Source of the DNA: Candidatus Aerophobota bacterium
Lineage (GTDB): Bacteria > Aerophobota > Aerophobia > Aerophobales > B3-G15
Reading direction: 5' to 3'
NCBI GenBank assembly: GCA_014859225.1
Contig: JACUUP010000034.1
Coordinates: 1-13,375, forward strand
DNA length: 13,375 bases
The notes below the pieces were generated by a model. It did no database searches and was not told where the DNA came from. It saw only the letters and a list, made by a program, of their open reading frames with translations. A program made the translations under genes and the position numbers. Numbering within the stretch: the first letter of the stretch is position 1; every line of letters starts with the position of its first letter. Shown here piece after piece: positions 42 through 12,280 of the stretch.

Positions 42-752
42 ATGGGGAACATGAGTGATAGTATGCAAAAGGTAGCGGATGATATTCGCTCATCGGCTGA
101 TGAGCGAGGAAGATTTCTTCGCGAACTTTCAAGCAAGACGCACAGTATGATAAAAGAACTTCACAATACAAGAGAAGATGAAGTTAAGGCTCTAAAGGAA
201 AGGCTTTTTTCCCAGGAGAAAGCAAGAGTTGAGGCAACACGCAAGTTTATGGATGAGGTTGGGGTGAAAGTTAGCGAAATGCGCTCTGACACCAACAATC
301 TAATAAAGCGATACGGACTTGAGCGCAGGGATGATGCTAAGAAGCTTCAAAATCAACTTTCCTCAGGTGAGAAAAAACGCAAAGAAGATATGAAAAAGGT
401 GCTGGATGAGATCGCCTTGGATACGAGAAAACGCAAAGAAGATGTGAAAAAGGTGCTGGATGAGATTGCCTCTGAGCTTAGCCAGGCACACAGGGTGTGG
501 CTGGAAGTTTGCCGGAAAGTGGCGCCCGAGGTTCCTGTGGTGGAAGAGGAGGTTGAAGAGGCCGCGCCAGCTATCTATGAGGAGAAAATTCTAAATATTG
601 TGAGCAGGCATCCTGATGGAATCAAACTGGTTGATATTGGGGATGAACTGGGGGTAGAGTGGAGAGCCTTAATTGGGATTATCAAATCTTTGGTTGATAA
701 GGGAACAATTGAAAAGATTGATAACATGTACTATCCCAAAAAGGAGGGATAA
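42..752 (+). CDS. GvpC-like helical repeat protein with C-terminal winged helix
   Basis: The 236-aa product has two parts. Residues 1-165 are highly charged and predicted to be almost wholly helical, with an internal repeat: residues 24-74 align with 75-125 at an offset of 51 (shared IKR/IKE, R-x-D-x-x-K-x-L, S-x-E-K-x-R, DE[VI] positions). A shorter 18-aa tandem unit (RKEDxKKVLDEIA) occurs at 113-125 and 131-143. This arrangement, next to gvpN, resembles GvpC, the repeat protein that binds the outside of the gas-vesicle shell and stiffens it. After an acidic Pro/Val/Glu linker (about 160-178), residues 179-234 look like a winged helix-turn-helix (ILNIVSRHPDGIKLVDIGDE, then a wing ending MYYPKK). 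A strong AGGAGG (27-32) stands 9 nt before the ATG; a second in-frame ATG at 51 is possible. GvpC identity is inferred from repeat style and context, not from a clear match to the classical 33-residue repeat. Confidence 0.6.
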   Translation: MGNMSDSMQKVADDIRSSADERGRFLRELSSKTHSMIKELHNTREDEVKALKERLFSQEKARVEATRKFMDEVGVKVSEMRSDTNNLIKRYGLERRDDAKKLQNQLSSGEKKRKEDMKKVLDEIALDTRKRKEDVKKVLDEIASELSQAHRVWLEVCRKVAPEVPVVEEEVEEAAPAIYEEKILNIVSRHPDGIKLVDIGDELGVEWRALIGIIKSLVDKGTIEKIDNMYYPKKEG

Positions 753-753
753 T

Positions 754-1632
754 ATGGAAAGAATGCAAACCCTTCTGCAAGTTGAGCCTGGTGATGACTT
801 TATCATTACTCCATCCATCCAGAATATTTGCAAAAGAGCTATGGCTTATCTTGAGGCAGGCTATCCTGTGCACCTTAGTGGTCCAACCGGGACGGGCAAG
901 ACAACTTTAGCTTTGCATCTGGCAAAACTTCGGAGCCGTCCAGTGATGCTGATATTCGGTGATGAGGAATTTGGCTCATCTGACCTTGTGGGAAGCGAGA
1001 AAGGAGTCCTCTCCAGGCGGTTGGTAGATAACTATATTCATTCGGTCCTAAGAACCGAGGAAAGTATCATACCCCAATGGGTGGACCAGCGCCTTACCAC
1101 CGCTTGCAGGTATGGACACACGCTCATTTACGATGAATTTTCCCGTTCCCGTCCCGAGGCAAACAATGTCCTTCTTGCTGTTCTTGAGGAAGGACTTTTG
1201 AGTCTTCCTGAAACCCGCTATAGGGAAAGCTATATGCAGGTTCACCCTGAATTTAGAGCGGTCTTCACCAGCAACCCTCAGGAATACGCAGGAGTTTACA
1301 AAACCCAGGATGCTCTCTTGGACAGGATGATAACAATCCATCTGGACCATCACGATAAAGAAACTGAAATAGCTATTACTCAGGCTAAATCAGGTATTGA
1401 AAAAAAGGAGGCAGAAAAAATTGTGGATATTGTGAGAAAGCTTAGATGTATGCACGAAAACTCCTGGCCAAGTATCCGGGCATCTATTATGATTGCCAGG
1501 ATACTTGTCCTGCAAAAAGGAAAGGCGAGAATAGATGATTCTATCTTCCTGGAGACCTGCTCTGATATTCTTGGTTCAAATGGTTTTGCAAACAAGGATA
1601 TCACAGAGCTTATACGTAAGGAATTGAGGTGA
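754..1632 (+). CDS. gvpN: Gas vesicle protein GvpN, AAA+ ATPase
   Basis: This 292-aa protein is a MoxR/CbbQ-like AAA+ ATPase of the GvpN family, which in other systems is needed for gas vesicles to grow to full size. The Walker A motif GPTGTGKT is at residues 43-50, Walker B LIYDEF at 124-129 and a sensor-1 stretch FTSNP at 171-175, followed by DALLDRM, as in GvpN/CbbQ proteins. The frame is open further upstream (to 673), but the ATG at 754 is the clear start. It lies 1 nt after the stop of the preceding gene and has AAGGAGGG (741-748) just upstream. The distance to the next gene is 6 nt. The 292-aa length and intact motifs suggest a functional enzyme. Confidence 0.95.
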   Translation: MERMQTLLQVEPGDDFIITPSIQNICKRAMAYLEAGYPVHLSGPTGTGKTTLALHLAKLRSRPVMLIFGDEEFGSSDLVGSEKGVLSRRLVDNYIHSVLRTEESIIPQWVDQRLTTACRYGHTLIYDEFSRSRPEANNVLLAVLEEGLLSLPETRYRESYMQVHPEFRAVFTSNPQEYAGVYKTQDALLDRMITIHLDHHDKETEIAITQAKSGIEKKEAEKIVDIVRKLRCMHENSWPSIRASIMIARILVLQKGKARIDDSIFLETCSDILGSNGFANKDITELIRKELR

Positions 1633-1638
1633 TATACT

Positions 1639-1959
1639 ATGAGCTCAGAAAGAAAAGGTATAAGGAACATCCGCACCCTGCGCGGTCGGGTGGATAAGTG
1701 TCGAGCCAAAACTCCCCAGGGAGCTTTGATTGAACTTGCCCAGCTCGCCCAAAAGAAGGCAAGGCTGCACAAAGAGATGAAAAGATGGGAGGAGAAGATA
1801 AAGCAGATTAACTCTGAGCTGGAGCAGATTGCTACTATGGAAGAGTGGCTCTATCGCTTTGTTGATGGCTTGCAAGTGCCTTCTTGTATTCCATCTGAAA
1901 GTAAAAGAACCTCACAAGCTACTTCCTCACATCTTCATGAGATGAGGATTCAATACTAA
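1639..1959 (+). CDS. Small basic coiled-coil protein of unknown function in gvp cluster
   Basis: I do not recognise this 106-aa protein. The N-terminus is basic (residues 1-25, rich in Arg and Lys). Residues about 28-66 form a heptad-like coiled coil (IELAQLAQKKARLHKEMKRW and on), followed by a short aromatic segment (EEWLYRFVDG) and a Ser/Thr-rich tail that looks disordered. There are no membrane segments or recognisable catalytic motifs. The ATG lies 6 nt after the gvpN stop and uses GAGGTGAT (1626-1633), which overlaps the end of gvpN, so the two are probably translationally linked. Its place between gvpN and the zinc-finger gene suggests an accessory role in vesicle assembly, but this rests only on position. 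Confidence 0.75.
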   Translation: MSSERKGIRNIRTLRGRVDKCRAKTPQGALIELAQLAQKKARLHKEMKRWEEKIKQINSELEQIATMEEWLYRFVDGLQVPSCIPSESKRTSQATSSHLHEMRIQY

Positions 1960-1986: not shown

Positions 1987-2307
1987 GTGGTGCTTATTAA
2001 GTGCGCTTTTTGTAAGGGTAGAGGGAAAGACCCCTTTGGCATCATGTCCCACCTATCAACATGCTACGCCTGTAAAGGCAAAGGGACTTTGTGGGTTGCA
2101 AAACCCACAAGAGCCTGTCCCTACTGCCAGGGAACTGGAATTTCACCCATTGGTGCAAGAAACTATTGCCTTGCATGCCGTGGCAGAGGTGTTGTCTCTA
2201 TACCAGAGAGCACAGAAACATGCCCTTACTGTGGAGGAACTGGTCGGGAGCCGAGCGGGCTTTACTGTATTGAATGTAAGGGGAAAGGGGTCGTTGTAAA
2301 GAAGTAA
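1987..2307 (+). CDS. DnaJ-type zinc-finger protein with six CxxCxGxG motifs
   Basis: The 106-aa product is almost entirely cysteine/glycine zinc-finger modules of the DnaJ (Hsp40) central domain. CxxCxGxG motifs start at residues 6, 26, 44, 61, 79 and 94 (CAFCKGRG, CYACKGKG, CPYCQGTG, CLACRGRG, CPYCGGTG, CIECKGKG). They form three tandem units of two motifs each, where canonical DnaJ has four motifs binding two zinc ions; three zinc sites are plausible here. There is no J-domain or substrate-binding C-terminal domain. The start is GTG at 1987 (or the adjacent GTG at 1990), with AAGGAG (1972-1977) upstream. It lies two genes upstream of a GvpF/L protein carrying a J-domain, so the two could supply separated DnaJ parts. 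The family assignment is seen in sequence; a chaperone role for gas-vesicle proteins is inference. Confidence 0.85.
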   Translation: MVLIKCAFCKGRGKDPFGIMSHLSTCYACKGKGTLWVAKPTRACPYCQGTGISPIGARNYCLACRGRGVVSIPESTETCPYCGGTGREPSGLYCIECKGKGVVVKK

Positions 2308-2338: not shown

Positions 2339-2521
2339 TTGAGATCAACATCAACATTGATAAAATGCTTCGTCCGGATAGACTCACAAGGACACATCGT
2401 AGTTCCCGATAACATCAGAAGAGCTCTTGAATTAAAGGGAAATCAACTGCTTGAGCTGAAAGTCATTGGAACAAGCAGAAACAGAAATATTCTCATCTCC
2501 AAAAGGAAGGTCGCTCTATAA
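2339..2521 (+). CDS. AbrB/MazE-like swapped-hairpin DNA-binding protein
   Basis: This 60-aa protein has the N-terminal AbrB/SpoVT/MazE signature: a beta-hairpin with RIDSQGHIVVPDNIRRALEL (residues 14-33) followed by a KGNQLLELKV strand. Such proteins usually dimerise through swapped hairpins and bind DNA as transition-state regulators or antitoxins. No toxin gene adjoins it, so a regulator of the gvp operon is the more natural reading. The start appears to be TTG at 2339, preceded by GAGGAGG (2324-2330) at an 8-nt spacing; no better ATG exists in frame. The C-terminus (ILISKRKVAL) is short and basic. The fold call is confident; the target is unknown. Confidence 0.75.
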   Translation: MRSTSTLIKCFVRIDSQGHIVVPDNIRRALELKGNQLLELKVIGTSRNRNILISKRKVAL

Positions 2522-2580: not shown

Positions 2581-3576
2581 ATGAGTCAGAATAGAGAGAA
2601 GCTAATCTGCTGTGTAATAGAAACACAGGGAAAAGATTTATCCATCTGTGAAAAGAACGGATTACATCTAATTCCTTACAGAGACATTACTGCTGTTACT
2701 TATAGGGTGGAAAAGGAAAACTTTGAAAAAATGGGTAAAGAAGAGCTTAATAGATGGCTTCTATGGTATCAAAAGGTAAATGTTACCTTTTTCCATTCTT
2801 ACACAATGGTCCCTTTGAGGTTTGGAAATATTACCCAGGATACTACTACCATAAAAGACTTCTTAGCCCGAACGTATCTTCACATTAAGTCAGCTCTTAA
2901 CAGGGTACGGGAAAAATGTGAGTTCGTGGTAAAGGTTTCCTGGGACCTGAGTGCCTTTTTGCGGGAGATAGCCCGGGACAAACAGGAATGGGTGGACAAG
3001 CTTGATGTATCAAAAAAAGTAGAGGTGGGAAAGTTACTTTTTGAAGCTGCCGAGAAAAAAAGGGAAATTATTTCAAACACCACCCATCAAAAACTTTCCC
3101 GCATAGCTTCTGAGTGGACAGAAAATACAAGAAAAGATGCATCCTTGCTCATGGACAGAAGCTACCTTATTGAACAGGATGAAGAAGCCGTTTTTGATGA
3201 GGAGATGGAAAGTCTGGGAAAAGAAAATAAAGCTTATCTTACCTTCAGGTATTTTGGACCTTTACCCCCTTACAGTTTCGTGCCTTTAGAGTTCAACCTG
3301 GCTAACGTTGATGTAATTGATGAGGCGAGGAATACTTTAGAGCTTCCCGAAAGAACCTCCTTGCAAGATATTAAGAGAAATTTTAAGAAACTATCTTTGC
3401 GGTATCACCCTGACAGAAATGCTCTCCATCAAGCCTGTGCTGAACATTTTAGAAGAGTAACCAGGGCATACGATGTTTTGAGAGCTTACTGCTTGAGTGT
3501 GGGAGAGGTGAGTGAGTACTCTTTCTTGAGAGAAGATGTAGAAAAAACCTTTGTAGTAAAAAACAAAATTCCATAA
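2581..3576 (+). CDS. GvpF/GvpL family protein fused to C-terminal J-domain
   Basis: The 331-aa protein has a GvpF/L domain at about residues 1-240, including the conserved PLRFGNI segment (78-84) and the family's C-terminal GPLPPYSFV signature (226-234). GvpF/L proteins are accessory components that contact GvpA and are thought to act in shell nucleation. Instead of ending there, the chain continues into a J-domain (about 243-304): helix II DIKRNFKKLSLRY, the diagnostic HPD tripeptide at 276-278 (RYHPDRN), and helix III with FRRVTRAYDVLRAY. J-domains stimulate Hsp70 (DnaK) ATPase activity, so this protein could bring DnaK to nascent vesicle components. The start ATG has AAAGAGGAG (2563-2571) upstream. 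Usual GvpF/L length is about 220-280 aa; the excess is the J-domain. The intact HPD argues for function. Confidence 0.9.
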   Translation: MSQNREKLICCVIETQGKDLSICEKNGLHLIPYRDITAVTYRVEKENFEKMGKEELNRWLLWYQKVNVTFFHSYTMVPLRFGNITQDTTTIKDFLARTYLHIKSALNRVREKCEFVVKVSWDLSAFLREIARDKQEWVDKLDVSKKVEVGKLLFEAAEKKREIISNTTHQKLSRIASEWTENTRKDASLLMDRSYLIEQDEEAVFDEEMESLGKENKAYLTFRYFGPLPPYSFVPLEFNLANVDVIDEARNTLELPERTSLQDIKRNFKKLSLRYHPDRNALHQACAEHFRRVTRAYDVLRAYCLSVGEVSEYSFLREDVEKTFVVKNKIP

Positions 3577-3590
3577 GATAAGGTATAAAA

Positions 3591-4361
3591 ATGACCTCGT
3601 CATCACAACAAAGTTTAGAAAAAGGAAAGTTCTTCTACGCAGTGATTCTTGCAGATAAAGAAAAAGATGTTGGACTTCTTGGCTTAAATGGGGAAAAGGT
3701 GCATTTCATTTTCTATAAAGATATTGCCGCCGTGGTAAGTGGGCACCCCAGGGTGGACGTTATAAAACTTTTGCGCAAGAATCTTTCTCCCTATCACCGG
3801 GTATGTAGAGAGCTGGGAAAAACTTTCACGACCTTGCCGGCAAAATTTGGCCAGATAGCAAAAGATGAGCATGAAGTTCGCAAAGTATTGGAGGCAAATT
3901 ATACGAGGATTAGAAGTGAGCTTTCCCGATTGCATAATAAAGTTGAGATGGGACTAACGATATTCTGGCAGGTGGATGATGTATTCCAGTATTTTCTCAG
4001 CAAAGATGCTGAGCTTAAATCCCGCAGAGAAAAGCTCTTGCAAAGAGGCGGAAGTGCTTCTCGTATGGAGAGGTTGAACTTTGGAGAATTCTTTCATCAG
4101 AGGATGATAGATGCAAAAGACAAAATTGCCAAACAGGTAATCTCTCTTTTTCCGGCAGAAGAGATAAGGATTGAAGAGCCTTCAGAGGAAAAGATGGTGA
4201 TGAATGTTTCTTTGCTGGTTACAAAGAATAGCTTAAAAAATTTTGATGAGGCACTGACAAAGGTAGCTAACATGCTGGGCGAAGAATATAGCGTGAAGGT
4301 AGATGGACCCTGGCTGCCATTTAGTTTTGTGAAGCGTTTGGAGCTTGGATTTAATCGGTAA
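3591..4361 (+). CDS. gvpL: GvpF/GvpL family gas vesicle protein (second copy)
   Basis: This 256-aa protein belongs to the GvpF/L family. Visible hallmarks are the N-terminal ferredoxin-like strand region (FFYAVILADKE), the conserved LPAKFGQIA block (82-90), a central charged helical segment and the C-terminal GPWLPFSFV signature (239-247). It ends shortly after that signature, as is normal for the family, unlike the preceding J-domain fusion. GvpF/L proteins are minor or accessory proteins required for vesicle formation and bind GvpA. It is separated from the previous gene by 14 nt containing TAAGG (3579-3583). F and L paralogues cannot be told apart reliably by eye, so the symbol is approximate. 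Confidence 0.88.
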   Translation: MTSSSQQSLEKGKFFYAVILADKEKDVGLLGLNGEKVHFIFYKDIAAVVSGHPRVDVIKLLRKNLSPYHRVCRELGKTFTTLPAKFGQIAKDEHEVRKVLEANYTRIRSELSRLHNKVEMGLTIFWQVDDVFQYFLSKDAELKSRREKLLQRGGSASRMERLNFGEFFHQRMIDAKDKIAKQVISLFPAEEIRIEEPSEEKMVMNVSLLVTKNSLKNFDEALTKVANMLGEEYSVKVDGPWLPFSFVKRLELGFNR

Positions 4362-4379: not shown

Positions 4380-4616
4380 GTGGCTTTTTTGTTAGATGAT
4401 ATTGTCCTGGCGCCGCTTAAAGGTCTTGAGTTTATTGCCAGGAGCATCCGTGATGAGGCAATGCGGGGATTTCTGGATGAGGAAGGGGCAAGAAAAAAAC
4501 TGCGCGAGCTTTACCGGCTCTTTGAGAGCGGCAAAATATCCGAGGAAGAATTTGAGAAGCAGGAAGAAGAAATAGTTCAGCGCCTGGAGCAAATTGAAGC
4601 GTATAAAAAAGGCTAG
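4380..4616 (+). CDS. gvpG: Gas vesicle protein GvpG
   Basis: The 78-aa product matches GvpG in size and pattern: a hydrophobic N-terminal helix (FLLDDIVLAPLKGLEFIARS, residues 3-22) typical of the family, then a long charged helix (EEGARKKLRELYRLFESGKI) ending in the ISEEEFEKQEEE pattern. GvpG is a small essential accessory protein that interacts with other minor Gvp proteins during early assembly. The start is GTG at 4380, with AAGGAG (4367-4372) at a 7-nt spacing. It sits directly after a GvpF/L gene, a common gvp arrangement. The next gene, gvpO, starts 18 nt downstream. Confidence 0.9.
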   Translation: MAFLLDDIVLAPLKGLEFIARSIRDEAMRGFLDEEGARKKLRELYRLFESGKISEEEFEKQEEEIVQRLEQIEAYKKG

Positions 4617-4634: not shown

Positions 4635-4892
4635 GTGCAACTAAAAGAGATTATAGAAAGAGCGAAACGTGAGCTTCAGAATGCTATGAATTTAGAGGTT
4701 TCAACCATTTCAGGAGCCTCTAAGGTAGAGGATGGCTGGCAGGTCACACTTGAACTTATTGAGAGAAAAGCTATTCCCGATACTCAGGACCTTTTAGGTT
4801 CATACGAGGTGCATCTTGATGATGCTGGCGACATGATGAGTTTTGAGCGTAAGAAAGTGCGCCGTCGCATGGATACAGAGGAAACCGAGTAA
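4635..4892 (+). CDS. gvpO: Gas vesicle protein GvpO
   Basis: The 85-aa protein carries the GvpO core: GWQVTLELIERKAIPDTQDL (residues 34-53) followed by LGSYEVHLDDAGDMMSFER (54-72), a pattern in which a Trp-containing strand leads to a conserved IPDT and YEV-x-LD. GvpO is an essential minor protein in haloarchaeal vesicle formation, with proposed regulatory or chaperone-like roles. Translation likely starts at GTG 4635; an ATG at 4633 is out of frame. AAAGGAGG (4621-4628) stands 6 nt upstream. The C-terminus is acidic. The stop codon overlaps the AAAGGAGG of the following gvpJ-like gene, so translation of the two is closely linked. Confidence 0.88.
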   Translation: MQLKEIIERAKRELQNAMNLEVSTISGASKVEDGWQVTLELIERKAIPDTQDLLGSYEVHLDDAGDMMSFERKKVRRRMDTEETE

Positions 4893-4904: not shown

Positions 4905-5258
4905 ATGGCTATGCAAGCGGAAAAAGATGCGGGCAGAACACTCGCCGATGTAATTGACAGAATTTTAGACAAAGGGCTGGTTATCAATGCCGATATTACT
5001 GTATCTGTAGCAGGAGTTGAGCTTCTCGGGATTAAAATAAAGGCAGCTCTTGCATCATTTGAGACAGCAGCCAGGTATGGTTTGGAGTTTCCTTCAGGAA
5101 CCAATTTGCAGCAAAAAGCCTGGGAAGAGGCAAAGGTAGCTAAGGATATATGCCCCCAATGTGATAAAAGAGTAGCTTTGGATGAGCTTATGGCTATCGG
5201 TTGTCCCTGGTGTGGCTTTCTGCCAGCAAAAGTAAAAAAGTTGCTTGAGGCTGAATAG
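4905..5258 (+). CDS. gvpJ: GvpJ-type gas vesicle protein with C-terminal zinc ribbon
   Basis: Residues 12-62 are a GvpA-superfamily domain (LADVIDRILDKGLVINADIT, then ELLGIKIKAALASFETAARY and GLEF). The NADI and ASFETAARYGLEFP features are those of the minor paralogue GvpJ rather than GvpA, which has DAW at this position. GvpJ is thought to be a minor shell or vesicle-tip component. Unusually, the tail (about 80-108) has two CPxC knuckles, C83/C86 and C100/C103, forming a zinc ribbon rather than the acidic, low-complexity tail of haloarchaeal GvpJ. AAAGGAGG (4891-4898) lies 6 nt before the ATG at 4905; a second ATG at 4911 is possible. Total length is 117 aa. Confidence 0.88.
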   Translation: MAMQAEKDAGRTLADVIDRILDKGLVINADITVSVAGVELLGIKIKAALASFETAARYGLEFPSGTNLQQKAWEEAKVAKDICPQCDKRVALDELMAIGCPWCGFLPAKVKKLLEAE

Positions 5259-5312: not shown

Positions 5313-5579
5313 GTGTTGGGATTGGTTATTGCTCTCGTAGAGATAATAAGGGATGCTCTTCGTCTGCAGGCTTTTAAAAGAATGGAGGGAGGAAGTTTAA
5401 CGGATGAGGAGATAGAAAGACTGGGAAACTCACTTTACGCTCTTGATACAGCTATTGATGAAATAAAAGGGGAACAGGGTATAAGTGAGGCTGTTAGGTC
5501 GGTAAGAGAAGGTTTAGATACGATTGTAGATGATGTTATAGATAAAATCCTGAACCCCCAGGATAGCTTGTCCAGTTGA
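5313..5579 (+). CDS. gvpK: Gas vesicle protein GvpK (5' end apparently disrupted)
   Basis: The 88 residues from GTG 5313 show the GvpK core: LGLVIALVEIIRDALRLQA, then MEGGSLTDEEIERLG, a motif characteristic of this family of minor accessory proteins needed for vesicle formation. The same frame is open upstream to 5271 and encodes DGVVDINQNNLKDA, which looks like the normal GvpK N-terminus, but it contains no ATG, GTG or TTG. An ATG at 5272, well placed behind AGGAGG (5258-5263), reads ATG GGG TAG and stops at once. One extra G in the run at 5274-5277 would give ATG GGG GTA GTT GAT, joining the Shine-Dalgarno and ATG to the frame. Either the start has moved to GTG 5313, or the G-tract carries a real or sequencing-derived deletion. 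Confidence 0.88.
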   Translation: MLGLVIALVEIIRDALRLQAFKRMEGGSLTDEEIERLGNSLYALDTAIDEIKGEQGISEAVRSVREGLDTIVDDVIDKILNPQDSLSS

Positions 5580-5598: not shown

Positions 5599-6369
5599 AT
5601 GAACGAAGAAAATGGGCTGTATCTTTACTGCGTAGCCGAAGGTAACGAGGAAAAAAGCTTGGGCAAAATTGGTATTGAAACAAATGAAGTTTACACCATA
5701 GCCTATCGCAACCTGTGTGCGCTGGTGCACCGCTGCCCTGCCAGACCCTACCAATCCAAAGATGAGGAAGTGGTAAAAAAGTGGGTGCAAACCCATCAAA
5801 AGGTTTTAGATATAGCGACAGAGAAGTTCGGCAACATTCTTCCTTCAGCTTTTGATACCATAATTAAAAGCAATAACAGTGCCACTGCTGAAGGGACTTT
5901 GAAAATATGGCTGGCAAAAGAATATGAGAATTTAAAAAATAAGCTGGATAAGCTAAGAGGCAAGGCAGAGTACGGCGTTCAGATTTTCTGGGACCCTAAA
6001 ATCATGGCAAATAAAGTTGCCGGAAAAAATAAGGAAATTGAAAAGTTAAAAGAACAAATAAAATCAAAACCCAAAGGAACAGCATACATGTTCAAATATA
6101 AATTAGAAAAGGTTTTAAAAATAGAAATGGAAAGGGAGATAGATAGATATTTTAAATATTTTTACGAAATAATTAAAAAATGCGTTGATAACCTTAAGGT
6201 GGAGAAAGTTAAAAGAGGCGAGGAAGGAAAGCAAATGTTATTGAACCTGTCTTGTCTGATATCAAAGGATGGTTATAAGAATCTGGGAGAAGAACTGGAG
6301 AAAATTAATAAGCTGGATGGATTTTCCGTTCGTTTTAGCGGACCCTGGCCACCCTACTCATTTGTATAG
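5599..6369 (+). CDS. gvpF: GvpF/GvpL family gas vesicle protein (third copy)
   Basis: This 256-aa protein is the third GvpF/L member. It begins with the characteristic GLYLYCVAEG strand and IAYRNLCALVH, has the central LPSAFDTII block in place of the usual RFG/KFG segment, and carries a Lys-rich helical middle (about 150-215). It ends exactly at the GPWPPYSFV signature (248-256). Compared with the second copy, the middle is longer in charged helix and the RFG-like motif is weaker, suggesting specialisation. A strong AGGAGGTGA (5581-5589) directly follows the gvpK stop (5577-5579), and gvpM starts 9 nt after its own stop. GvpF versus GvpL naming is uncertain. Confidence 0.87.
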   Translation: MNEENGLYLYCVAEGNEEKSLGKIGIETNEVYTIAYRNLCALVHRCPARPYQSKDEEVVKKWVQTHQKVLDIATEKFGNILPSAFDTIIKSNNSATAEGTLKIWLAKEYENLKNKLDKLRGKAEYGVQIFWDPKIMANKVAGKNKEIEKLKEQIKSKPKGTAYMFKYKLEKVLKIEMEREIDRYFKYFYEIIKKCVDNLKVEKVKRGEEGKQMLLNLSCLISKDGYKNLGEELEKINKLDGFSVRFSGPWPPYSFV

Positions 6370-6378
6370 GAGATAAAG

Positions 6379-6624
6379 ATGGAGCCAATTCGGGATAAGC
6401 ATGCTACTCTGGTTGACCTTTTAGATAGGCTTTTGAATAAGGGTTTGGTTATTAACGCTGATATTATTGTCTGTGTTTCTGGTATTCCTTTAATTGGGAT
6501 AAAAATAAATGCACTTATTGCGGGAATGGAGACTATGTTAGAATACGGAGTAATGGAGGCATGGGATGAAGACCTCCGAGCCCGGGAAATGGAGCAAATA
6601 AGCCATGAAAGTGCAAACAAGTGA
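6379..6624 (+). CDS. gvpM: Gas vesicle protein GvpM
   Basis: The 81-aa protein is a GvpA-superfamily minor component closest to GvpM. It has LVDLLDRLLNKGLVINADII (residues 11-30), then GIPLIGIKINALIAGMETML (35-54), then EYGVMEAWDE. The IPLIG, AGMETM and EAWDE pattern parallels haloarchaeal GvpM (IPLVG, AGMTTM, EEWD). GvpM is hydrophobic, essential in small amounts, and contacts GvpF-L proteins and GvpH. AGGAG (6368-6372) overlaps the stop of the preceding GvpF/L gene. Its last 20 nt overlap the start of the HD-GYP gene, so the two are very likely translationally coupled. Confidence 0.9.
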   Translation: MEPIRDKHATLVDLLDRLLNKGLVINADIIVCVSGIPLIGIKINALIAGMETMLEYGVMEAWDEDLRAREMEQISHESANK

Positions 6625-7258
6625 AGAAACATACAGGAATCTTATAAAGGTAGAAGCAAAACTCCAAAAATCGGTAGCCAAACTACAAAAATCTTTAGCG
6701 GGAACAATTCAGGCTCTGGCAAACACAGTTGAAATGAGAGACCCTTACACTGCCGCCCATCAAAAAAGGGTAGCACAGCTTGTCTTAGCTATAGCCAGAC
6801 ACATGAAGCTTTCGGAGGAAAAAATCAATGCTCTTTTGTTCGCTGCTACTATCCACGATTTAGGCAAAATACACATACCTTCTGAAATCTTAAGCAAACC
6901 TGGTAGGTTAACTCAAGTAGAATTAGATATGATTAAAAGCCACCCTCAAGCAGGATATGAAGTCCTGAAAGGTATAGAGTTTCCCTGGCAAGTTGCCAAA
7001 ATCGTGCTGCAACATCACGAGAGGATGGATGGCTCTGGATATCCTCAGGGTTTGAAGAAGGGCGAAATTCTTCTGGAAGCACGTATCTTAGCTGTAGCCG
7101 ATGTGGTTGAGGCTATGTCCTCCCATCGACCTTACCGTGCCGCACCTGGTATGGATAAGGCGCTGGAGGAAATAGTACACAATAAGGGCAAATTATATGA
7201 TGCTTGGGTAGTTGATGCTTGCCGTGCTCTTTTTCGGAGTACAAAATTTACATGGTAA
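6605..7258 (+). CDS. HD-GYP domain phosphodiesterase (probable c-di-GMP hydrolase)
   Basis: The 217-aa protein is a nearly stand-alone HD-GYP domain. A short helical N-terminus with a repeated KLQKS (residues 1-33) precedes the domain. Visible metal-site and signature elements are H52, the HD pair at 84-85 (IHDLGKIHIP), HP at 113-114, HH at 137-138, GYP at 145-147 (MDGSGYPQG) and D166 (AVADVVEAM). HD-GYP enzymes hydrolyse cyclic di-GMP, and some act on cGAMP. No receiver, PAS or membrane domain is attached, so input may come through protein contact. The start ATG at 6605 lies inside gvpM, 20 nt before its stop, so it is part of the gvp operon. With the catalytic ligands intact, activity is likely; a role in linking second-messenger state to buoyancy is inference. 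Confidence 0.92.
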   Translation: MKVQTSEETYRNLIKVEAKLQKSVAKLQKSLAGTIQALANTVEMRDPYTAAHQKRVAQLVLAIARHMKLSEEKINALLFAATIHDLGKIHIPSEILSKPGRLTQVELDMIKSHPQAGYEVLKGIEFPWQVAKIVLQHHERMDGSGYPQGLKKGEILLEARILAVADVVEAMSSHRPYRAAPGMDKALEEIVHNKGKLYDAWVVDACRALFRSTKFTW

Positions 7259-7490: not shown

Positions 7491-9668
7491 ATGAACGAAA
7501 TGAGCAAAAAAGATTCTGCAGTGAGTTTAAAAGCAGGTGAGGCAAGACCAAAAGATGCGGGCAGGGGAATAGTCAGGATAGACCCAAAAGATATGGTAAG
7601 AATAGGGACAGAGGTAGGAGATGTTGTTAAGGTGAAAGCTAAGAGAGAAACGGTAGCGAAAGTTATGCCTGCATATATGGAGGATAGAGGTAAAGATGCT
7701 ATCCAGATGGATGGCTTGCTGAGAGAAAATGCGAAGGTTGGACTGGGCGAGAAGGTATCTGTTGAAAAAACCTCCTGCCGGTTAGCTGAGAAACTTATCA
7801 TTTGTCCCCTGACAGTTATGAAGAGCATGCACCAGGAAAAAGATAGAAGATATATCGGCAGACTCCTGGAAGGTCTTGCTTTAATAGAGGGTGATAGAAT
7901 ACGAGCTAACCTTTTTGGAACTCGCAGCCAGGACTTCACCGTGGTATCCACCACACCCGAAGGTCCCGTATTAATCTGTCCTGAAACTATCATTAAAACA
8001 AAAGGGGAGGGAAGTAGCGCCGAGGGAAAAGCCAAGGTATCCTACGAGGATATCGGCGGCGTGGAAAAAGAGATACGAAAGGTCAGGGAGATGATTGAGC
8101 TTCCCTTAAAGTATCCGCAGATTTTTGATAGGTTAGGTATTGAAGCACCAAAAGGAGTCCTTTTGCACGGTCCGCCTGGCTGCGGAAAAACTCTAATTGC
8201 CCGCGCCGTAGCCAATGAGACAAATGCCTACTTTGTTCATATCTCAGGACCTGAGGTGATTGGTAAATACTACGGGGAAAGCGAATCCAGGATTAGAGCC
8301 ATATTTGAGGATGCCCAGAGGAATGCCCCTGCCATCGTCTTTATTGATGAAATTGATGCCATTGCTCCCAAAAGGGAAGAGATGGGAGGAGAAAAACAGG
8401 TAGAAAAAAGAGTCGTTGCCCAACTTCTTGCCCTGATGGATGGACTCAAATCACGCGGACAGGTGATTGTCATTGCTGCTACTAATATTCCCAATGTCAT
8501 AGACCCTGCCTTAAGAAGACCGGGAAGGTTTGACCGGGAAATAGAAATAGGCATTCCCGATAAAAATGGCAGATTGGAGATACTGCAAATCCATACGCGG
8601 GGGATGCCCCTATCAGATAGTGTCAACTTGACAAAAATGTCCCAGATTACGCACGGATTTGTGGGCGCTGACCTTGAGGCTTTGTGCAGAGAAGCAGCTA
8701 TGGTCTGCCTTAGAGGACTTTTTCCTAAAATTGACTTTGAACTTGAGGAGATTCCTTACGAGATACTGCTCAAACTTGAGGTAACCATGGATGATTTTAT
8801 GGAAGCTTTAAAACAGGTAGAGCCGTCTGCTATTAGAGAGATATTTACCGAGATTCCTGATGTAAGATGGAGTGATGTGGGGGGACTTGATAACATAAAG
8901 GAGATACTGCAAGAGACAATAGAGTGGCCCTTAAAATATGGGAATTTATTTACTTACGCAGCGACCAAACCACCCAAAGGTATTCTCTTGTATGGCCCTC
9001 CTGGGTGTGGCAAAACTTTACTGGCAAAAGCGGTGGCAAACGAGGCTGAAGTCAATTTTATCTCGGTTAAAGGACCTGAGCTTTTGAGCAAATTCGTAGG
9101 TGAATCAGAGCGGGGTATCCGCGAGGTATTTAAAAAAGCAAAACAGGCATCTCCCTGTATCATTTTTTTTGATGAGATAGATGGTTTAGCCCCGGCTCGG
9201 GGAAAAAGTTTTGATTCACATGTATCTGACCGGGTAATCAGTCAGTTTCTCACTGAAATGGATGGCATAGAGGAACTGAAGGGAGTCATAATCCTGGCAG
9301 CTACCAATAGATTAGATATCATTGACCCTGCCCTGCTTCGCTCGGGTAGATTTGACTTTCTACTTGAGATACCTGTTCCTGATGCACCAACAAGAGAAAA
9401 AATCTTTGAAGTCCACACGAAAGGTAAACCTTTCGCTTCGGATGTTGACCTTAAACTACTCGTTGAAAGGAGCGGAGGGCTGAGCGGTGCTGATATTGAA
9501 CTAATCTGCAAGAGAGCAGCCCTTTTGGCTATAAGGGAATTTTTGACAGACAGGAAAGGGGAGGTTGGCGAAGATTTCAGCCAATTGAACATTTCAACCG
9601 AACATTTCGCAAGAGCAGCCAAGATGCTCCAGGAAGGTAGGGGAAAAATCGTGGCAGGAAACATTTGA
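7491..9668 (+). CDS. Cdc48/VAT-type double AAA+ ATPase
   Basis: The 725-aa protein has the full Cdc48/p97/VAT layout. An N-domain (about 15-170) contains a double-psi barrel beginning [22 protein letters not shown] domain D1 has Walker A GPPGCGKT at 227-234, Walker B VFIDEI at 283-288, pore residues KYYGES and the RRPGRFD arginine-finger region at 342-348. Domain D2 has Walker A 502-509, Walker B IFFDEI at 558-563, pore KFVGES and RSGRFD at 617-622. Such ATPases unfold or extract proteins from complexes. All catalytic residues appear intact; the C-terminus (IVAGNI) lacks the HbYX proteasome-docking tail. The ribosome-binding site is weak, and ATG 7500 is an alternative start. The likely role is remodelling or turnover of gas-vesicle proteins, inferred from context. 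Confidence 0.95.
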
Positions 9669-10357
9669 TGAAAAAACTTCTTTACGTGCCCATGATACAT
9701 ATGGAAGCTGACCTTGGAAGCCTGGCTCCTACTTTCAATCAAAGATGCATTCAAATTTATGGAGAGGAGCGCTGGGAAAAGCATAAAAGAGTTGTCTCAA
9801 AGTTCTGGGATTGTATTGCCACCTTCTTTGATGGTTTGGATGCTTCCAATTTGAAAATTTATCAAGATGGACTGGTTGAAGATGGAAAGTTAGGGCAAAA
9901 GATTGTGGAAGAGGCAGCAAAAAAGGGAAGCAAGAATCACCAAATTATCCTCAACCTGATGCAAAAAGGTGCAAACATCGTAAAAACAGAAGACCTTTCA
10001 CTGGTCAAAAAAGAATATGACACTCTTATGAAGCTTGCAGGAGAAAAACACTTCCTGCAGCGAACAGTTCGCTACATACAATATAAACTCCTGAAAGCTT
10101 CTTTGATGCAAAAAAGAGATAGATTTATCGCCCAAAGGATACATAAAACCCTAAAGGAAGAAGAGCTGGGAGTTCTTTTTATAGGAGTTTACCATGATAT
10201 ACTTTCCCGAATTTCAAAAGATATTAAAGTCTATGAGGTAAAGGAAAAAACGAAGATAAAAGCTTACTTTGATGGACTTATTAGAGAAAAAGATGAAAAA
10301 AAATTTGACGAGTTGGCCGAATATCTCATCCTGCCAGTTGAGGATTTGAAGCTGTAA
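9668..10357 (+). CDS. Unrecognised conserved-looking protein coupled to the Cdc48 homologue
   Basis: The start is the ATG at 9668, which overlaps the preceding stop as TGATG, so translation is coupled to the Cdc48-like ATPase. The 229-aa product is soluble and mixed alpha/beta. It begins with a strand and HME motif (KKLLYVPMIHMEADLGSLAP, residues 2-21), has a Lys-rich helical middle, and contains a second strand motif LGVLFIGVYHDIL (167-179) preceded by RDRFIAQRI. The arrangement RD-x-x-IAxRI followed by a hydrophobic FIGxxHD strand faintly recalls TraB/PrgY-like proteins, but I would not assign it. There is no signal peptide or membrane helix. The context suggests a partner or substrate adaptor of the ATPase in the gas-vesicle module. 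Confidence 0.8.
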   Translation: MKKLLYVPMIHMEADLGSLAPTFNQRCIQIYGEERWEKHKRVVSKFWDCIATFFDGLDASNLKIYQDGLVEDGKLGQKIVEEAAKKGSKNHQIILNLMQKGANIVKTEDLSLVKKEYDTLMKLAGEKHFLQRTVRYIQYKLLKASLMQKRDRFIAQRIHKTLKEEELGVLFIGVYHDILSRISKDIKVYEVKEKTKIKAYFDGLIREKDEKKFDELAEYLILPVEDLKL

Positions 10358-10366
10358 GGTAAAAGT

Positions 10367-11146
10367 ATGTTTCGTTTAATTAAAAAATACAACAACCGAA
10401 GGATGTACGATACCAAAAATAGCAGGCCAGTTACGCTTTTTGACCTTGCAAATCTAATAAAACAGGGTGAAAAAATTCAGGTAATAGACCACGCTACAGG
10501 AGGCGATATTACTCCTGTAGTCCTGGTTCAGATTTTTCTGGAGAATCTTAAAAGCTCAGTTATCCAGTTTTCATCTGGAGGAAAAGTTGTATCACAAAGA
10601 AAGCTTGCAAAAAGGAGGACAATAATGGCTGAAAAAAAACAGGAGGAAATTGACCTTGGCTTAGGAAAAATAAGCTTAGGAGGGATATTTGAGGGAATTG
10701 GTAGTTTGATTGACCTTGCATCCAGGCTATCCGAAGAGGTAAAAGAAATTAAAAAAGAAGGTGAGATAAAGGGGTTAGGCGATAAAGTAAAAGGCGTTTA
10801 CGGTTTTAGTATTAGAACTCTAAGCGGCAAACGACCGGTTGTCCAGACATTTGGCAATATCAAGCGCACCAAAGAAGGACCTGTAATAGAAGAAGTTAGG
10901 GAGCCCATTGTAGATGTTCTTGAGGAGAAAGATTTTGTCAGGGTAATAGCAGAGCTTCCCGGAGTGACCAGGCAGAATATTGACATCAAAGTAAACGGTG
11001 ATATTCTCAATCTTTGTGCCGAAAAACAGGATAAAAAATACGCCAAGGAGATTTTGCTCCCCTTTCAAGTAAAGCAGGACCCTGCAGAGTTTTCCTTTAA
11101 GAACGGGATACTGGAACTTAAGATACAAAAAAAGGAATCTAACTAA
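10367..11146 (+). CDS. PhaR-type N-terminal domain fused to GvpH-like Hsp20
   Basis: Residues 3-60 match the DNA-binding domain of PHB/PHA accumulation regulators (PhaR): IKKYNNRRMYDT, VTLFDLANLIKQGEKIQVID, TGGDIT and the final QIFLE. Residues 87-178 are a linker beginning MAEKKQEEIDLGLGKISLGG, the style of a separate GvpH start. Residues 179-255 are an alpha-crystallin domain (ELPGV at 196-200, FKNGILELKI at 244-253), as in Hsp20-like GvpH. PhaR proteins bind DNA and PHB granules; GvpH binds GvpM and other minor Gvp proteins. The reading frame is continuous across both parts, yet a strong internal AAAGGAGG and ATG (10625) could also yield a 173-aa Hsp20 protein alone. TAAGGT (10355-10360) serves the upstream ATG. 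Confidence 0.88.
   Translation: MFRLIKKYNNRRMYDTKNSRPVTLFDLANLIKQGEKIQVIDHATGGDITPVVLVQIFLENLKSSVIQFSSGGKVVSQRKLAKRRTIMAEKKQEEIDLGLGKISLGGIFEGIGSLIDLASRLSEEVKEIKKEGEIKGLGDKVKGVYGFSIRTLSGKRPVVQTFGNIKRTKEGPVIEEVREPIVDVLEEKDFVRVIAELPGVTRQNIDIKVNGDILNLCAEKQDKKYAKEILLPFQVKQDPAEFSFKNGILELKIQKKESN
10611..10627 (+). promoter_or_regulatory. Internal Shine-Dalgarno and ATG for the stand-alone GvpH-like Hsp20 isoform
   Basis: AAAGGAGG (10611-10618), 6 nt spacing and ATG (10625-10627) form a near-ideal initiation site inside the fusion gene, in frame. It is stronger than the site serving the full-length ORF. The protein after this ATG would be 173 aa and would begin MAEKKQEE. Confidence 0.7.
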
Positions 11147-11161
11147 ACTCGGGATGTGAGC

Positions 11162-12280
11162 CTAAATTTCTCTCATTCCTACCGGAGCAAGCTCAGGGGC
11201 CCTTTTAAACCAATTCCTTGTACGAAAGCACACTCTAACCAGCATGAGCATTACGGGAACTTCAATCAACACTCCTACTACGGTAGCTAAAGATGCACCC
11301 GAGGCAAGACCAAAGAGCATGGTAGATGTGGCAATTGCCACCTCAAAATGATTTGATGCACCAATCATTGCCGCAGGAGCTGCATTTTCGTAGACAAGGC
11401 CCAGGACCTTCGCCAGGATATATCCCACCGCAAAGATTACACATACCTGAATAAACAGGGGAATGGCAATGAGACCAATAACCTGAGGCTGCCTCAGAAT
11501 AACGTCTCCTTTGAGCGCAAAAAGAACCACTAACGTAGCAAGCAAAGCAACAATGGAAACGGTGGTTAACTGGTGCACAAATTTTTTCTCAAACCAGGCC
11601 ATACCTTTCTTTTTTATAATCTTCTTGCGGGAAAAATAGCCGGCGAAAAGAGGAAGACCTACATAAATTAAAACCGACAGAACTATGGTTTGCCAGGGAA
11701 TAGGCATCCGGGCAACTCCCAGTAAAAACCCTCCGAGTGGAGCGTAGAGAAAGAGCATGGTCAAGGAGTTAATTGCCACCATAATCAGGGTAAGTGCCTG
11801 GTTTCCCCGGGCAAGGTAGGACCACATAAGCACCATTGCCGTGCAGGGAGCAATTCCTAAAAGAATAGTGCCTGCTATGTAGGAGCGATACAGTGGAACT
11901 TCCTGTCCTCTGATAATCTCGGTTCCCGGGATAAAAGACCGGAACAAGATCCCAAGGAACAAATACGCGAACAAAAACATGGTAAAGGGTTTTATAGCCC
12001 AGTTGATGATGAGCGTCAAAAGTACCGGCTTGGGGGTCTTTCCAGTTTGTATCACCTGAGAAAAATCAATCTTTACCATAATCGGATACATCATAAAGAA
12101 AAGGCATATAGCAATGGGAATAGAAACCTGGGCAATACTCATTCTATCCAGCCACACAGATAGATGGGGAAAAGCCCTGCCTAAAAGGATTCCTGCAACA
12201 ATACAAAGTGCCACCCAACCTGTCAGGTACTTTTCAAAGATACTTAGCTTTTTTATTTCTACTTTTTCTGTAGATGCCAT
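11162..12280 (-). CDS. acr3: ACR3-family arsenite efflux transporter
   Basis: The 372-aa membrane protein has about ten hydrophobic segments and the ACR3 signature region [20 protein letters not shown] (137-156), with the conserved transmembrane cysteine at C146 and [18 protein letters not shown] after it. A second conserved block, [11 protein letters not shown] (307-317), includes E313. ACR3 proteins export arsenite from the cytoplasm using the membrane potential. The start ATG at 12280 has GGAGGGG upstream, overlapping the end of arsC, whose stop lies 3 nt before. It is the last gene of the arsRC-acr3 operon and converges with the gvpH-like gene across only 15 bp. Confidence 0.95.

Follow-up and report, generated by a model that had tools for sequence, protein, structure and literature searches.

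In haloarchaea, and likewise for the proteins of a B. megaterium operon, GvpF binds the shell protein GvpA and has been proposed to be its chaperone (PMC9501494, PMC11445434), while GvpF2 of Serratia is required for vesicles (PMC4982088). No Hsp40 or Hsp70 component figures in the accounts of gvp components given in PMC9501494 and PMC11445434. With the GvpH/HSP20 proteins and GvpN of the described gvp clusters, the locus considered here shares the idea of chaperone-like proteins and an AAA+ ATPase aiding vesicle assembly. How the very hydrophobic GvpA stays soluble and is fed to the growing shell is the question addressed by the gene described below.

This gene is situated in a stretch of 13,375 nucleotides from Candidatus Aerophobota bacterium (the window, always taken at its full length) and encodes a GvpF/L domain continued by a J-domain. 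Class C J-domain proteins are Hsp40 co-chaperones in which a J-domain is combined with an unrelated targeting domain. The fusion resembles them in the J fold, the HPD tripeptide and the basic residues of helix II, with neither the G/F region nor the DnaJ C-terminal domains; it differs from them in that the J-domain is C-terminal on a gas-vesicle assembly protein and is short, the usual helix IV being absent. The zinc domain of DnaJ contains four CxxCxGxG motifs. As in the DnaJ/DnaK system, the J-domain and a CxxCxGxG zinc protein occur together here, sharing one cluster, in some relatives with DnaK as well; unlike in that system, the parts are on separate chains and the zinc protein has six motifs.

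Our verdict is that the fusion is real and widespread, a variant of GvpF/L that would act much as class C J-domain co-chaperones do, and that it is apparently undescribed in the sources searched. These were the open-access literature, with subscription papers and preprints outside the scope, and they yielded no description of a GvpF/L-J fusion or of a gvp-linked DnaK; within them, the impression of novelty recorded in the initial annotation holds. The pair of domains may well be already visible in protein-family databases.

Gas-vesicle cluster of the window

The window carries a gvp cluster, and genes for GvpG, GvpO, GvpK, GvpL and GvpA-family proteins adjoin the fusion (Table 1). The position of the unfused GvpF/L gene is common, as such a gene comes after the fusion in 70 of 86 clusters. 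A typical GvpA N-terminus is seen where another contig (C215) of the same genome ends, and hence the genome probably does have the main shell gene.

Table 1. Genes and protein features of the gas-vesicle cluster in the window
Feature	Position	Strand	Basis and remarks
Long coiled-coil protein, start of cluster	42..752	+	
GvpN-type AAA+ ATPase	754..1632	+	AAA_5 E 5e-17; matches GvpN genes of related clusters
Short coiled-coil protein	1639..1959	+	recurs beside GvpN in related clusters
CxxCxGxG zinc protein, six motifs, apparently related to DnaJ central domain	1987..2307	+	PF00684 E 6.9e-11; alignment A4
GvpF/L-J fusion gene	2581..3576	+	single ORF, 331 aa; Pfam domains, AlphaFold2 model, fold matches
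GvpL_GvpF domain, aa 11-234, C-terminal end GPLPPYSFV	2611..3282	+	PF06386 E 2.3e-40; GvpF fold, Z 21.1 to 6l5d_A
J-domain	3307..3501	+	PF00226 E 3.5e-12; model pLDDT ~97; Z 7.6 to 5nro_B
HPD tripeptide, aa 276-278	3406..3414	+	read from sequence; invariant in alignment A2
Unfused GvpF/L paralogue, immediately 3' of fusion	3591..4361	+	PF06386 E 6e-47
GvpG	4380..4616	+	PF05120 E 1.4e-17
GvpO	4635..4892	+	PF05800 E 4.7e-21
GvpA-family minor shell protein, GvpJ/S type, zinc-ribbon-like C-terminal cysteines	4905..5258	+	PF00741 E 4.5e-17
GvpK	5313..5579	+	PF05121 E 2.8e-16
GvpL	5599..6369	+	PF06386 E 2e-62; NCBIfam GvpL E 1e-52, under its curated cut-off
Second GvpA-family minor shell protein	6379..6624	+	PF00741 E 3e-15
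CDC48-family AAA+ unfoldase	7491..9668	+	TIGR01243 949 bits, above cut-off
Conserved unnamed protein	9665..10357	+	recurs in gvp clusters: 19/58 fused loci of at least 12 kb
PhaR N-terminal domain fused to HSP20	10367..11146	+	PF07879 E 8e-23; HSP20; NF041800 E 9.6e-42

Two further genes of the window may be added. A short AbrB/MazE-like protein (2339-2521, plus strand; weak match), possibly a regulator, is encoded downstream of the zinc protein and upstream of the fusion. An HD-domain (HD_5) protein (6605-7258, plus strand) separates the last GvpA-family gene from CDC48, in the slot occupied by DnaK in some related clusters. A GvpA-family protein of an order relative (G011, locus L014) has a long tail with terminal cysteines similar to those of the GvpJ/S-type protein, and a truncated GvpF/L gene adjoins it at the contig end.

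Domain structure of the fused protein

The open reading frame starts with ATG, has no internal stop and is immediately preceded by a GAGGAG-type ribosome-binding site. Both Pfam domains score well above their cut-offs, GvpL_GvpF (PF06386) with 139.6 bits against 23.6 and DnaJ (PF00226, aa 252-301) with 46.7 bits against 27.8, and the PPYSF motif occupies aa 229-233. The profile search of the genome contigs produced the identical J-domain match (G000:C94:3334-3483). The initial annotation, made from the letters of the DNA, had described a GvpF/L domain and a J-domain with an intact HPD in one chain and had proposed a domain search and a structure prediction as checks; Pfam and the sequence agree with this description, and the predicted model, too, shows a GvpF fold followed by a J fold. 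The J-domain is the sole DnaJ part of the chain, and the class A layout, with J, G/F, zinc and C-terminal domains together, is absent; the NCBIfam DnaJ_bact model gives 39 bits, far below its cut-off of 377, and hence this is not DnaJ proper.

The AlphaFold2 model, constructed from the alignment of 57 fused proteins with the window protein as the first row, has pLDDT 92.3 and pTM 0.84. In the J region, helices are predicted at aa 243-252, 261-275 and 284-307, with the HPD between the second and the third, and they are followed by a short strand at aa 324-328. Over its first 235 residues the model matches GvpF crystal structures (Foldseek and VIA-align; for 4qsg, Z 19.8, slightly below the value for 6l5d_A in Table 1). 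In sequence family, fold and genomic setting this part is like GvpF/GvpL, the difference being that structures 4QSG and 6L5D stop after the GvpF fold, whereas the fusion continues directly into the J-domain. Residues from about 244 onwards match J-domains, among them 5nro_B, a J-domain bound to DnaK (rmsd 2.3 over 61 residues); Foldseek against many J-domains yields probability 1.00 with E-values of only about 0.02. A Z-score below 8 is by itself indecisive, and the Pfam match and the HPD concur with the J fold predicted by the model.

Distribution and conservation of the fusion

The broad sample comprised 386 genomes, mostly one per family. GvpF/L over the cut-off was present in 24 of them, and 14 of these 24 have the fusion. 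In the second survey the species genomes of GTDB were scanned for the GPLPPYS junction of fused proteins, yielding 135 relatives, of which 80 were kept; since this motif was itself derived from fused proteins, fusions are over-represented in the second survey and 14/24 is the fairer figure. Exactly one fusion per locus was observed in 93 of 103 loci, or 86 once duplicates are removed, and the fusion-bearing clusters come from at least 19 named phyla. The fusion is not a one-off and forms a widespread orthologous group. A cultured carrier is Octadecabacter arcticus 238, where the gene is on a plasmid (NC_020910.1) and its product (WP_015497776.1) is annotated only as GvpL/GvpF family. Viral contigs searched with alignments A1 and A2, as well as phage sequences searched by tblastn, contained nothing of the kind.

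Given that the draft genome of the window is fragmented into 273 contigs, one might put the fusion down to an artefact of assembly, to read-through, or to a recent chance event devoid of function. This explanation is refuted by the recurrence of the junction in 85 other non-redundant clusters over many phyla together with the conserved HPD and the grouping of the fused proteins on the trees, and we assign it a negligible probability. A frameshift separating the two domains, considered in the initial annotation, is excluded in practice, as the junction is identical in these 85 independent clusters; the phylogenetic survey suggested there now covers 86 non-redundant clusters, with the fused forms grouped on trees.

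The fused proteins cluster apart from the unfused GvpF/L proteins of the same clusters. In the tree of the GvpF/L domain only (291 rows), the fused state requires two changes, compared with the mean of 73 for shuffled states; in the mixture-model tree of 58 rows it requires one, compared with 19. FastTree leaves three fusions (those of the window, L064 and L133) outside the main fused group. In the mixture-model tree, however, every fusion is on one side of a branch with SH-aLRT 84, and these three, joined at 96, are a divergent branch within the fused group. Since this tree unites all fusions including these three, a single old origin is likely, although not proven.

The HPD is intact in 88 of 93 fusions (81 of 86 non-redundant ones). 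Along with it, the helix-II face that touches Hsp70 is conserved across phyla, and the residues corresponding to E. coli DnaJ positions Y25, R22 (K/R), H33, P34, D35, F47, A53, Y54 and L57 are largely retained. Five fusions, from Chloroflexota and a delta-proteobacterial lineage, have lost the HPD and kept the J helices, and two of them, scanned with Pfam DnaJ, gave no match. These five fusions, and the lack of conservation of the helix IV / QKRAA region of DnaJ in the fusions, are consistent with a J-domain that has become independent of Hsp70 and serves for structural docking or dimerisation, comparable to the J-like domain of Tim16/Pam16. As a general description of the fusions this is distinctly unlikely: an HPD kept in such a large majority is hard to explain without Hsp70, and several of the clusters encode DnaK paralogues. 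In the HPD-less lineages a structural role may be the true one; where the HPD is kept, a purely structural J-domain is unlikely.

DnaK in the gas-vesicle clusters

Neighbourhoods were searched with E. coli DnaK. In eight loci (L105, L109, L117, L120, L134, L138, L139, L142) a DnaK paralogue is linked to the gvp genes on the same strand; in L134 it occupies 10397-12217. Two more are found on other contigs of fusion-bearing genomes: L180, from the genome of L141, is adjoined by gvp genes, and L181, from the genome of Candidatus Scalindua rubra (L153), lies near zinc proteins and a GvpF/L gene. The ten genomes represent four phyla, Chloroflexota, Planctomycetota, Nitrospirota and Candidatus Auribacterota. 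The usual place of the gene is right after the terminal GvpA-family gene, and in nearly all these genomes another, more canonical DnaK is encoded elsewhere. Given 1.25 Mb of locus DNA and a background of one or two DnaK copies per genome, we estimate that chance would yield roughly one DnaK, compared with the eight seen, these cases being partly related by descent. None of the ten non-fused gvp clusters has DnaK. Most fused clusters have no linked DnaK within the locus DNA examined, many of these loci being truncated.

The seven full-length gvp-linked DnaKs compared are separated from the housekeeping copies by a branch with support 100. The ATPase residues are conserved in them, and a stretch of about 26 residues around E. 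coli positions 78-103 is missing from several. In four Chloroflexota lineages with a gvp-linked DnaK (L138, L139, L142, and L141 with L180) the fusion has lost the HPD. DnaK residue R167, which we take to be the one that meets the HPD aspartate, is replaced by K in L139 and by G in L180, and is retained in L138 and L142, the numbers being small.

In the draft genome of the window (91% complete) we found no dnaK, no dnaJ and no other J-domain; its only two Hsp70 matches are weak and of the actin-fold kind. PF00012 matches were obtained in all 16 order relatives searched; these are nearly all a strong DnaK, and the canonical dnaJ adjoins it. The idea of a genome having a J-domain and no DnaK was rejected, as one missing contig explains both absences, and since the relatives carry dnaJ beside DnaK, an assembly gap is the simplest reading.

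Proposed role of the fused protein

We consider it probable that the fusion is a dedicated, class-C-like J-domain co-chaperone of gas-vesicle assembly that brings Hsp70 to hydrophobic GvpA-family clients. The GvpF/L half would bind either the Gvp assembly complex or a hydrophobic shell protein of the GvpA family, and the J half would dock on Hsp70 via the HPD and helix II and stimulate its ATPase. Hsp70 would then clamp the client and hold it soluble until it is passed on, either to the expanding shell or to the GvpF/L or GvpG protein next in line. The initial annotation placed this recruitment at the vesicle nucleation site; the fusion may act there, or instead in the delivery of shell protein, in quality control or in disassembly. 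Where a gvp-encoded DnaK exists, that paralogue would be the Hsp70 used; other lineages, probably including that of the window, would rely on the housekeeping DnaK. The HSP20, CxxCxGxG and CDC48 proteins may constitute the remainder of a vesicle-specific proteostasis module. We infer that the fusion binds the client and stimulates Hsp70, and likewise infer the order of hand-over: by analogy with GvpF, the addition of a J-domain would put Hsp70 on the same client, GvpA. The contact between GvpF/L proteins and GvpA, invoked in the initial annotation, is published for GvpF, that is, for other members of the family (PMC9501494, PMC11445434), and the link to Hsp70 proposed there gains backing, independently of its argument, from DnaK in several related gvp clusters.

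As some fusion-bearing clusters carry their own Hsp70, our results suggest that a dedicated chaperone system takes part in gas-vesicle construction in many microbes. A wider proposal, to which we would give slightly less than an even chance, is that a large part of the non-model bacterial gvp clusters use a self-contained, vesicle-dedicated Hsp70 system, composed of the GvpF/L-J Hsp40, its CxxCxGxG partner, in some lineages the gvp-linked DnaK, HSP20 and CDC48, with the Hsp40-Hsp70 pair rewired in some Chloroflexota, where the HPD is lost and, in two of four lineages, DnaK R167 is changed. The separate gvp-linked DnaK group would exemplify a bacterial Hsp70 specialised for one organelle. The conserved fusion makes the handling of GvpA testable by a single HPD mutation and names DnaK as the molecular partner. 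It also offers parts for gas vesicles as ultrasound reporters; many gas-vesicle clusters fail in E. coli (PMC10344784).

Other chaperone-type neighbours

The fused loci often contain further genes of the chaperone type: CDC48 is present in 65 of 86, HSP20 in 62 and the CxxCxGxG zinc protein in 30, compared with three, three and none, respectively, of the ten non-fused loci; as the loci are of unequal length and the controls few, these counts are indications. In 44 of the 78 clusters with room for it, CDC48 is directly upstream of the fusion. The frequency and position of this unfoldase, together with the frequency of HSP20, are what one would expect if the J-domain, with Hsp70 and CDC48, worked in turnover, directing misassembled shell protein to disassembly, quality control or recycling. 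This is the main rival of the assembly co-chaperone, and we regard it as unlikely: the GvpF/L half acts in assembly in the systems studied (PMC9501494, PMC11445434), growth is already served by GvpN, likewise an AAA+ protein, and the gvp clusters viewed show no consistent linkage to a protease.

The likeness of the zinc protein to the DnaJ central domain is based on sequence. The protein is also weakly similar to anti-TRAP, and a fold search gave no significant match, the best one (E 0.03) being a DnaJ zinc finger.

In the PhaR-HSP20 protein of the window, the N-terminal PhaR part is a DNA-binding domain and the HSP20 part is of the archaeal type. No PhaR part was found in any other gvp locus of at least 12 kb. 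An internal ATG near aa 86 of this gene could yield HSP20 alone.
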